DNA of 23,259 nucleotides from a virus, in the IMG/VR virus record IMGVR_UViG_3300030333_003615, positions 1-23,259 of that record; one strand, written 5' to 3'. The position numbers were made by a program, and so were the translations under genes. Below are positions 4,023-12,427 of the stretch, piece after piece (positions within the stretch are counted from its first letter, which is position 1; each line of letters starts with the position of its first letter). The notes beneath the pieces were generated by a model, which was given only the letters and a program-made list of their open reading frames with translations, searched no databases and had not been told where the DNA came from.

Positions 4023-5009
4023 ATGCCTAACTACGGAGAAAACAAATTACACGAAGCGTGTAATGAAATCGCTGAAGAATTTATTGCCCAGCTCGAGGCA
4101 ATACAAAATTCAGACGCTAAATGGACAGCCCCTTGGTCAACCTCGGATCAGCGGCCTATCAATTATCTCACCACCACTCCTTACCGCGGCTTCAATGTCA
4201 TCCGACTGGCAATGACACAGGTTCGGCATGGCTACCGCTACCCTTACTGGCTGACCTTCAAACAGATGATGGCTGTCGCTTCAAAGATCGGCACGCCGCT
4301 CTCGAATAAAGGCACCAAGGGTACACTCACAGTTCACTACGGACGGCAGTTCAAAAAAGGCTGGCGCAAGCACGGCACCAGCATGGCAATACATTCTAAC
4401 GGCAGCGTCGTACCGATCGACAAAGCTACATACTTTGGCGTCAACGTCTTCCATCTCTACAACGTTGATCAGATCGAAGGCTGGCCTGAAGGCACGTTTG
4501 TAGATCCCGAACCGAAACCTGAAGTTCCTTTCACGAATGAACGCTGCCTTGCATGGCAGGAAGCAGCGCGAGGCAAGCTACCTCCCATTCTGGACAGTAG
4601 TCAGGCAGCATATGCAATGGAGCCTGACGTTGTTTATATGCCGAAACTGAATGAGTTCATCACGGATCAGCCGGAAGAAAACTGGTGGGCAACAGCACTA
4701 CACGAATATGTGCATTCAACCCGCCATGAAGATCGGGTCGGCAGACCGAAAGGACTGACCACCAAAGATTACGCACTTGAAGAACTCGTTGCTGAGTTCG
4801 GCGCTTCATTCCTTACCGGCTTCTTCGATTTCAAAAGCGACCTTCAACACCGTGAATATATCGCCGGCTACGCGAAGGCTATTCGCAATGATCCAAAGCA
4901 GATGTGGCACTGCGCCAAGGCAGCGGATCAGGCAGCAACTTGGCTGCTCGAAGCAGGCGGCCTCACATGGCCGAACCCACTCAAACAAGAGGAGAAACAA
5001 GCCGCATGA
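4023..5009 (+). CDS. ardC: ArdC-like antirestriction protein (ssDNA-binding domain plus zincin)
   Basis: A 328-aa protein of the ArdC/TraC-like family. ArdC proteins come mostly from plasmids and conjugative elements, bind ssDNA and protect incoming DNA from host restriction. The N-terminal half (about 10-150) is the ssDNA-binding DUF1738-type domain, with WTAPW near 34, INYLTTTPYRGFN at 46-58, YPYWLTFKQ near 73-81 and FGVNVFHLYNVDQ near 138-150. The C-terminal half is a metallopeptidase domain with HEYVH at 227-231 and a downstream EELVAEFGASFL (253-264) supplying the third ligand. The ribosome site AAGGAAA precedes ATG 4023. Length is normal and both domains look intact. Expression must pass the terminator at 3958-4011. 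Confidence 0.9.
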   Translation: MPNYGENKLHEACNEIAEEFIAQLEAIQNSDAKWTAPWSTSDQRPINYLTTTPYRGFNVIRLAMTQVRHGYRYPYWLTFKQMMAVASKIGTPLSNKGTKGTLTVHYGRQFKKGWRKHGTSMAIHSNGSVVPIDKATYFGVNVFHLYNVDQIEGWPEGTFVDPEPKPEVPFTNERCLAWQEAARGKLPPILDSSQAAYAMEPDVVYMPKLNEFITDQPEENWWATALHEYVHSTRHEDRVGRPKGLTTKDYALEELVAEFGASFLTGFFDFKSDLQHREYIAGYAKAIRNDPKQMWHCAKAADQAATWLLEAGGLTWPNPLKQEEKQAA

Positions 5010-11207: not shown

Positions 11208-11642
11208 TTGCCTAGCGTTAATTACGTCGAGCTGATCGGCAATGTCGGGAAAGATCCCGAAGTTATGACCTTTGCCAATGGCGGCAAGGTCATAAAGTTT
11301 ACCGTCGCTACCTCCAAAAGCTGGAAGAATAAAGAGACCGGCGAAAAACAGCAAAAGACTTGCTGGCATAATATCCAAGCCCCGGTTCGCGAAGGCGGCC
11401 CCGGATGGTTTGCCGAACAGTATGTTCGCAAAGGTGATCTTGTTCGCATTGTCGGTGAAATAGACAACAGCAAATCAGAGAAGGACGGTGTGACCCGTTA
11501 CTTCTCATCGATCAACATCCCTGCTTATGATGGGAAAATCGATAAATTCTTTAAGCATTCGGATGATAACGCGCCGGCCAATCAATCGGCCGCACCAAAT
11601 CCGGACACCGACATTCCCTTGGATGACGACATTCCTTTTTAG
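11208..11642 (+). CDS. ssb: Single-stranded DNA-binding protein
   Basis: A 144-aa SSB with a full OB fold: VNYVELIGNVGKDPEVMTF at the N-terminus, then FTVATSKSWKN, TCWHNIQ and YVRKGDLVRIVGEI, and a disordered linker ending in the acidic tip DDDIPF that binds partner proteins. The start is TTG 11208 with GGAG seven bases upstream. It ends the recombination operon and coats the ssDNA made by the exonuclease and in replication. No odd feature in the protein; all strands of the fold are present. Confidence 0.93.
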   Translation: MPSVNYVELIGNVGKDPEVMTFANGGKVIKFTVATSKSWKNKETGEKQQKTCWHNIQAPVREGGPGWFAEQYVRKGDLVRIVGEIDNSKSEKDGVTRYFSSINIPAYDGKIDKFFKHSDDNAPANQSAAPNPDTDIPLDDDIPF

Positions 11643-11806
11643 GAGGGGTGGATCTCAGACGGTGACAGGAGGGATGCCGGGAAAAGCAAGATGCGTTTTT
11701 ATGAGACGTTAAAGCAGGGCCACCCCCTGTCACCGCAACGTTGGCAGTCAAAACCCTGTAATCTTGCACCCTCCCATTACTCAAACTGATTGGGGAAAAA
11801 CGAGTA
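11643..11806 (+). other. Structured intercistronic RNA between ssb and the arfA-like gene
   Basis: This 164-base gap holds three inverted repeats. GGGGTGG (11645-11651) can pair with CCACCCC (11720-11726); GGTGACAG (11661-11668) can pair with CTGTCACC (11727-11734); because the 3' arms adjoin, the two are alternatives or a strained pseudoknot. CATTACTC (11775-11782) pairs perfectly with GAGTAATG (11802-11809), burying the arfA-like start codon. The layout suggests a regulatory leader. Confidence 0.55.
11691..11789 (+). CDS. Possible 32-aa peptide upstream of the arfA-like gene
   Basis: A short frame beginning MRFYETLKQGHPLSPQRW and ending SHYSN, with no convincing Shine-Dalgarno at usual spacing (an AGGAGG lies about 18 bases upstream). 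It could be a leader peptide whose translation alters the hairpins around it, or only chance. No family recognised. Confidence 0.25.
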   Translation: MRFYETLKQGHPLSPQRWQSKPCNLAPSHYSN

Positions 11807-11962
11807 ATGAAACGCCGCGAGCCACCAAAGCGGCGCAACCCGAGTGCGGCTGCGCTACGGCACTATGGCCGAAAGGTCGAAGCCCCGAAGAAAGGCGGGA
11901 AGTTTTCCCGCAAGATCAAACACAAGAAGGAGGAGAGCGAATGTTGCAAGCAGGTGTTTTGA
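11807..11962 (+). CDS. arfA: ArfA-like alternative ribosome-rescue factor (51 aa)
   Basis: A 51-codon gene whose product contains NPSAAALRHYGRKVEAPKKG followed by KFSRKIKHKK. Against E. coli ArfA the pattern N-x2-A-x-A-L, R-x-V-E-x2-K-K-G, aromatic-x-R-K-x-K-H is kept, which covers the ArfA segment that contacts the ribosome decoding region and recruits RF2. ArfA frees ribosomes stalled on messages without a stop codon when tmRNA is lacking. The C-terminal 11 residues after KHKK are not ArfA-like. The ATG is in the stem of a hairpin, and the last codons and the stop are in the arm and loop of the terminator at 11933-11983, much as the arfA message of enterobacteria has a hairpin near its 3' end. 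Assignment is from motif recall. Confidence 0.6.
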   Translation: MKRREPPKRRNPSAAALRHYGRKVEAPKKGGKFSRKIKHKKEESECCKQVF

Positions 11963-11983
11963 GATCAGTCGCTCTCGTTTTTT
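11933..11983 (+). terminator. Terminator between convergent early and late operons
   Basis: GAGAGCGA (11933-11940) pairs perfectly with TCGCTCTC (11969-11976), loop 28 bases, followed by GTTTTTT (11977-11983). The arfA-like stop (11960-11962) and the stop of the minus-strand lipoprotein gene (11965-11967) both lie in the loop, so the two operons meet within the hairpin. Confidence 0.75.
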
Positions 11984-12321
11984 GCAGCTTTGATTTTTGC
12001 TCTCAAATCACCGTAATCAAGAATCATACGCCCAAGCGTTGAGCATGTGTCACTCGGTTCATCTTTTGCACAAGGCCGCTTTAAATATTCAAGCTCAAGT
12101 GCAGCACGCATCATAAATTCAGAACTGTATTCCGCTGTGGGCGGCGTTACGATTACAGGTTCAGCTTTTTCTGAAGTCTTGTAATCAAAATACGCCCCAG
12201 CCGACGAAGCCGATGCAGACGCAATAGCGGCAATTTCAGAAATTCCCGCTCCGCAGCCTTGTAATAGTATGAGGGCGGTCAGAAGGCTGCACTTTGTCCA
12301 TGCGTTGCCGCGCTTCCTCAA
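11965..12321 (-). CDS. Small lipoprotein, candidate outer-membrane spanin (Rz1-like)
   Basis: The start chosen is TTG 12321, with GAAGG upstream; it gives a lipoprotein signal: basic MRKRGNAWTK, hydrophobic CSLLTALILL, lipobox LQGC with Cys23. The 118-aa product continues with an Ala/Ser-rich segment, then a TPPTAEYSSEF stretch and a helical charged end with two further Cys. Its first part is encoded in a different frame of the preceding small membrane-protein gene, the nested layout typical of Rz/Rz1 spanins. It is last in the lysis cassette. It lacks the Pro-rich region of lambda Rz1, so spanin is a positional inference. Confidence 0.65.
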   Translation of the reverse strand: MRKRGNAWTKCSLLTALILLQGCGAGISEIAAIASASASSAGAYFDYKTSEKAEPVIVTPPTAEYSSEFMMRAALELEYLKRPCAKDEPSDTCSTLGRMILDYGDLRAKIKAAKNESD

Positions 12322-12427
12322 CAGCCTTCGCTGCCTCACCCTTCTGGAGACGCCGCCCCACCCAGATGGCGCCACCAATCGCGGCGATGATTCCGACAAG
12401 CGCCCCAATAACAAGCCAAGCATTCAC
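12236..12427 (-). CDS. Small membrane protein, candidate inner-membrane spanin partner
   Basis: A 63-aa protein from GTG 12427, immediately after the stop of the holin-like gene and preceded by AAGGCGAG. The N-terminal hydrophobic segment (residues 4-23, LVIGALVGIIAAIGGAIWVG) is followed by a charged helix (RRLQKGEAAKAVEEARQRMD) and a short polar end. It overlaps the lipoprotein gene in another frame, as Rz overlaps Rz1. At 63 residues it is short for an inner-membrane spanin, so it may instead be a second holin-type or regulatory membrane protein. Confidence 0.65.
   Translation of the reverse strand: MNAWLVIGALVGIIAAIGGAIWVGRRLQKGEAAKAVEEARQRMDKVQPSDRPHTITRLRSGNF

Follow-up and report, generated by a model that had tools for sequence, protein, structure and literature searches.

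On a 23,259-nt contig of an uncultured phage (IMG/VR record IMGVR_UViG_3300030333_003615; this whole stretch is called the window here), a 51-codon ORF ends inside a hairpin between two convergent genes. Does this ORF encode a phage-borne relative of the ribosome rescue factor ArfA, and is it expressed, as arfA is in E. coli, from a message that has lost its stop codon?

A small basic protein with an ArfA-like core

The 51-aa ORF described in the earlier note is present in the sequence, with its ATG at 11807 and its TGA at 11960-11962, and encodes MKRREPPKRRNPSAAALRHYGRKVEAPKKGGKFSRKIKHKKEESECCKQVF (Table 1). Lysine and arginine account for 18 of the 51 residues of this protein, many of them in the tail KKGGKFSRKIKHKK. 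The codon score of the ORF (0.03) lies between those of coding and non-coding frames (true 0.19 ± 0.11, false −0.21 ± 0.14). All three motifs of the claimed ArfA core pattern were found, namely N11-P-S-A14-A-A16-L17, R22-K-V24-E25-A-P-K28-K29-G30 and R35-K-I-K38-H39. The agreement is incomplete in detail, as the first motif reads NAIEALL in E. coli and the window protein is gapped at E. coli positions 22, 23 and 36.

The plus strand upstream of the ORF carries an exonuclease VIII-like gene, an uncharacterised gene and the gene of a single-strand DNA-binding protein (SSB), while spanin-like frames, an M15 endolysin and tail genes occupy the minus strand downstream. The tail and nuclease genes resemble those of aquatic phages that infect SAR11, Roseobacter, Methylophilales and cyanobacteria. 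In the collections searched, neither the contig nor its 1845-aa virion protein had a close relative. Likewise, no ArfA-like ORF was found beside relatives of the SSB and virion-protein genes or in the whole genomes of the distant phages MEP301, CRP-811, CRP-821, HTVC204P, CBW1004C-Prop1 and PB15. Positions 4023-5009 of the window encode an ArdC-type anti-restriction protein with a zincin-like peptidase domain.

Table 1 Features at and around the ArfA-like ORF, in coordinates of the window
Feature	Position	Strand	Basis or remark
SSB gene, upstream	11208..11642	+	Pfam PF00436, 74 bits; PHROG 44
Strong hairpin in the leader, 3' of the SSB gene and 5' of the ArfA-like ORF	11660..11735	+	MFE −34.9 kcal/mol, z −4.8
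Possible upstream ORF, 32 aa (MRFYETLKQGHPLSPQRWQSKPCNLAPSHYSN), reading through the 5' arm of the repeat	11691..11789	+	Codon score unsupportive
8-bp inverted repeat CATTACTC/GAGTAATG, in which the start codon would be paired; loop with G-rich GGGGA	11775..11809	+	
ArfA-like ORF, 51 aa	11807..11962	+	pI about 10.6, 18 K/R
ArfA-like core, codons 11-40 (NPSAAALRHYGRKVEAPKKGGKFSRKIKHK)	11837..11926	+	Profile alignment
Hairpin with arms 11933-11940 and 11969-11976 (8 bp) and a 28-nt loop containing the stop	11933..11976	+	
Stop codon TGA, within the hairpin loop	11960..11962	+	
T6 tract 3' of the hairpin, downstream of the stop	11978..11983	+	Probable long-loop intrinsic terminator
Convergent o-spanin-like gene with lipobox (LILLQGC)	11965..12423	−	ORF and lipobox; 3' end contains the 3' arm of the hairpin
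i-spanin-like frame overlapping the o-spanin-like gene	12236..12427	−	Weak PHROG Rz match

Profile evidence for ArfA ancestry

A search with the curated ArfA family model, proposed earlier as a check, did not support the assignment: the window protein was unmatched at E values up to 10 and thus falls short of the gathering cut-off of Pfam PF03889 (25.5 bits), while E. coli ArfA as a control scored 89.5 bits. Nor was the protein matched by any other curated model of Pfam, NCBIfam, PHROGs or PADLOC, including DUF7230 (PF23876), or by any solved structure. Protein-level searches of viral contigs, of bacterial genomes and of phages for close relatives returned chance matches only.

The case for ancestry comes from an extended profile built from 67 distinct sequences (E. 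coli ArfA, phage ArfA-like proteins and their relatives), from which the window protein was left out. This profile gave the window protein 22.7 bits, a score reached by none of 10,000 composition-matched shuffles (best 14.4 bits). Among 13,113 real six-frame ORF segments, the window ORF was the top non-member at 20.3 bits, and the next unrelated segment scored 7.6 bits. Chance carriers of the motif KKGGKYSRK scored at most 8.5 bits on the profile, indicating that the short motif alone is insufficient to account for the score of the window protein.

A DNA pattern for KKGxKxxRKxKH led to an intermediate sequence on three contigs, MRSPIHKSLFVKDSPFRQRVVKNKKGGKYTRKIKHRQREN (the L094 protein), which scores 25.7 bits in Pfam ArfA against the cut-off of 25.5 when started at an internal ATG, and 20.8 bits as a longer GTG-started frame. 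Its best match in the phage collection was Salmonella arfA (49% over 44 aa, E 0.1). L094 and the window protein share the shortened core KKGGK(F/Y)xRKIKH in an alignment of about 37 residues. As a single query, L094 gave the window protein 19.7 bits (best shuffle 14.0), and its addition to the extended profile raised the score to 27.3 bits. The related IMG/VR proteins L093, L094 and L097 resemble the window protein in this core, which is one residue shorter than KKGKGSY, but differ from it in retaining the FRQRV of ArfA and in starting with SPIHKSL rather than NPSAAAL. Beyond this set, the pattern KKGGK(Y/F)xRK occurred only in chance frames with low profile scores. One genome match (L109) was rejected as a chance match within a membrane protein.

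A profile made from four gamma-type ArfAs alone gave the window protein 11.3 bits (best shuffle 10.8), and the direct link to E. coli-type ArfA, with other phage sequences omitted, is accordingly weak. The idea of a phage-borne ArfA-like protein thus gains from the extended profile, the shuffle and real-ORF controls and the intermediate sequence, while the curated model is silent. Taken together, the sequence comparisons suggest that the window protein is very probably a divergent ArfA homologue.

The tunnel segment is kept and the RF2-facing segment is altered

In E. coli numbering, the window protein retains A18, L20, F25 (as Y), V29, E30, K33, K34, G35, G37, Y39 (as F), R41, K42, K44 and H45. 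A18, at which a change to T is inactivating in E. coli, corresponds to A15 of the window protein. It shares with E. coli ArfA (arfA/yhdL, PF03889) the helix start N-x2-(E/A)-A-x-L, V-E, KKG, an aromatic residue, the basic tail RK-x-KH and a core of about the same length, but unlike it scores below the Pfam threshold, has a short N-terminus and lacks residues at 22 (D22), 23 (P23) and 36; the placement of these gaps is uncertain as the protein is very short and divergent. L19 and L24 are replaced by A and H, respectively. The basic C-terminal tail K34-G35-x-G37-x-Y39-x-R41-K-x-K-H45 is kept with a one-residue deletion at 36 and the changes S38 to K and Y39 to F.

Trp319 of RF2 is bound by Leu19, Leu24 and Phe25 of ArfA in the E. 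coli complex, where Pro23 packs into the decoding centre and the mRNA tunnel is filled by residues 31-48; ArfA truncated after Asn47 remains functional (PMC5378476). The window protein extends to the point equivalent to Asn47. Its RF2/decoding-centre patch is not kept, with A, H and Y at 19, 24 and 25 and a gap at 23, and positions 19 and 24 also differ in most of the phage ArfA-like family. These roles, read onto the alignment, indicate that the tunnel part is conserved and the RF2-facing part is altered; we therefore call the protein an ArfA-like homologue rather than ArfA proper.

ArfA-like proteins in other phages

The presence of ArfA in phages is already known by annotation, in Citromicrobium phage RXM (published, PMC8953757) and Pseudoalteromonas phage J2-1, and the literature searched contained no functional study of any phage ArfA. 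What is new is the compact variant missed by the models, together with some 60 distinct ArfA-like proteins encoded by viral contigs. E. coli ArfA as a query against phage genomes yielded small ORFs, of which those of Citromicrobium, Erythrobacter, Roseobacter, Brevundimonas and Pseudoalteromonas phages and of Pseudomonas phage pf16 exceed the Pfam ArfA cut-off. The proteins of RXM (g10), J2-1, Erythrobacter phage XM05, Roseobacter phage CRP-212 and Brevundimonas phage Marchewka score 29.6-41.3 bits, whereas the window protein is sub-threshold. Like the window ORF, they are small stop-terminated phage ORFs with a basic tail and, in most, an NPxA start; unlike it, those from alphaproteobacterial phages have KGKGS(Y/F) without a deletion. 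The ORFs of XM05, CRP-212 and Marchewka are not annotated as ArfA, and that of CRP-212 (L008 2489-2614) was left unannotated because it lies within the span of a larger annotated gene (hypothetical protein gp38).

An alignment of four phage ArfAs led to 80 IMG/VR loci (L013-L092, e.g. L063 2980-3123) of the form NPxAKxxRTPKYxxRVVKPKKGKGSYxR. This family comprises 63 distinct sequences, including the four from isolated phages, and all four of the IMG/VR proteins tested passed the Pfam ArfA cut-off. The identified carriers are phages of Alphaproteobacteria, with Roseobacter, Citromicrobium, Erythrobacter or Brevundimonas as hosts. According to a published survey, arfA occurs in Gammaproteobacteria, in some Betaproteobacteria and in a few Bacillus, but was not found in any of the 2,376 alphaproteobacterial genomes covered (PMC11633108).

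Four records that resemble host DNA, "Pseudomonas phage Y3" and three from Salmonella, were excluded from the count of phage ArfAs. The stretch of the first (OQ572405.1) is likely mislabelled bacterial chromosome, with leuS, lptE, holA and arfA recognised by eye and a strong hairpin inside arfA. PF23876 (DUF7230) is matched weakly by E. coli ArfA and above its cut-off by the ArfA of phage J2-1 (L007 2483-2638), and by sequence similarity DUF7230 may be a sister of ArfA.

The hairpin at the stop codon

The earlier reading of the 3' end proved accurate in its geometry: codons 43-45 (GAG AGC GAA) lie in the 5' arm of a hairpin with eight perfect pairs, codons 46-51 and the TGA lie in its loop, and one G and then T6 follow (GTTTTTT). 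The fold is moderately better than those of shuffled sequences (z −1.2 for 71 nt, −1.8 for 100 nt and −2.3 for 62 nt), and the 8-bp stem is lengthened solely by A-U/G-U pairs across a mismatch. A terminator scan that accepted loops of 3-8 nt did not list this hairpin with its 28-nt loop, and Rfam gave nothing on the window at the curated threshold.

The E. coli arfA hairpin lies wholly before the stop and has more than 20 bp, and RNase III cutting and early termination each remove the stop (PMC3989581). Its fold reaches −38 kcal/mol (MFE) with z −3.7, and the Pseudomonas arfA hairpin found in record Y3 has z −3.3. An in-frame hairpin before the stop, the feature by which non-stop-message regulation is recognised, is not what the window contains, since the stop lies in the loop. 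Moreover, the U-tract occupies the positions 16-21 nt after the stop codon, and termination there therefore yields a normal message that retains the stop. A GC-rich hairpin with a T-run over the stop is found in almost no other phage relative, and L082 and pf16 have other stems at the stop-codon region. In pf16 (L006 2537-2638), the stop codon of an unannotated ArfA of 72 bits in Pfam overlaps a 9-bp perfect stem.

The two convergent genes end 2 nt apart (stop codons 11960-11962 and 11965-11967). The simplest reading is that the hairpin is mainly a transcription terminator squeezed between two convergent genes or operons.

Proposed role and alternative explanations

The explanation that we favour, and consider probable as a whole, is that the ORF encodes an ArfA-descended phage rescue protein made from an ordinary message, with a hairpin that serves mainly as a terminator. 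The protein would be translated from the 3' end of the SSB transcript, on a message that includes the stop codon and ends at the terminator between the convergent operons. It would then enter ribosomes stalled at the ends of truncated messages in the infected cell, place its K/R-rich tail in the empty mRNA channel and assist peptide release by a release factor of the host, probably RF2. We judge such rescue activity reasonably likely from the sequence. Because the stretch corresponding to E. coli residues 21-26 is shortened, the contact with RF2 must differ and the activity may be reduced or altered. A benefit of ArfA-like rescue to the phage, as previously suggested, is plausible.

Three other explanations were weighed. 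The basic composition of the protein, with over a third of its residues lysine or arginine, and the silence of the curated models are what an unrelated nucleic-acid- or ribosome-binding phage peptide, ArfA-like by composition, would give. We regard this as improbable, since the window protein outscored the composition-matched shuffles and the real ORF segments and aligns over some 37 residues with L094, with which it has a variant core in common. About equally improbable is an ArfA-derived binder of stalled ribosomes that does not activate RF2, either a remnant or an inhibitor that blocks rescue by the host. The shortened and changed segment for RF2 and decoding-centre contact speaks for it, but A18, L20, the aromatic residue at 25 and the entire basic tail are retained, and positions 19 and 24 vary in other phage ArfA-like proteins too.

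The remaining alternative concerns expression. RNase III might cut within codons 43-45, so that the stop is lost and the protein accumulates only if tmRNA fails, as in E. coli. Consistent with this, the 5' arm begins just past the core, a cut there would still leave, as in E. coli, a protein long enough to work, and the 100-nt fold forms an extended imperfect stem of −30.7 kcal/mol. Against it stand the U-tract 3' of the stop, an uninterrupted stem of just 8 bp with z values short of those of the E. coli and Pseudomonas hairpins, an arrangement that is not conserved in phage relatives, and a C-terminus (SECCKQVF) that has no hydrophobic degradation tail of the E. coli kind. Hence the suggestion that stem cleavage would give the same nonstop message as in enterobacteria is weak, non-stop-message regulation of this ORF appears unlikely, and this explanation as a whole is to be doubted to the same degree. 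If such cutting did occur, it would leave the core intact.

If the protein is active as a rescue factor, phages supply their own stop-codon-independent release helper, and the window protein shows how far ArfA can be shortened. The wider family matters more, with about 60 distinct ArfA-like viral-contig proteins whose identified carriers infect Alphaproteobacteria, a class without arfA in the survey (PMC11633108). A bolder and rather speculative proposal is that the compact ArfA-type factors that phages bring into arfA-less hosts form a large and mostly unrecognised class, with the window protein as an extreme form whose shortened decoding-centre segment entails a different contact with RF2, or the use of RF1. 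The phage proteins are small and testable, and would point to the rescue of stalled ribosomes as a limit on phage production.

The nearest functional parallel is phage-encoded tmRNA, e.g. in methylophage Melnitz (PMC9004378), which also represents phage-supplied ribosome rescue but acts by RNA-based trans-translation and not as a release-factor recruiter. BrfA of Bacillus and ArfT of Francisella are likewise small proteins for release-factor-dependent rescue (PMC6881298), a source that classes them as separate families.

The leader upstream of the ORF

The leader hairpin that closely follows the SSB gene has no T-run, and its role is possibly in RNA processing or control. For the inverted repeat at the start codon, pairing of 8 bp arises in 8 of 5000 shuffles and the fold z is only −0.8. 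The 32-aa ORF that runs through this repeat could provide translational coupling with the ArfA-like ORF. The starts of these two ORFs are each preceded by a similar GGGAAAA-(G/A)C(A/G)AG stretch.
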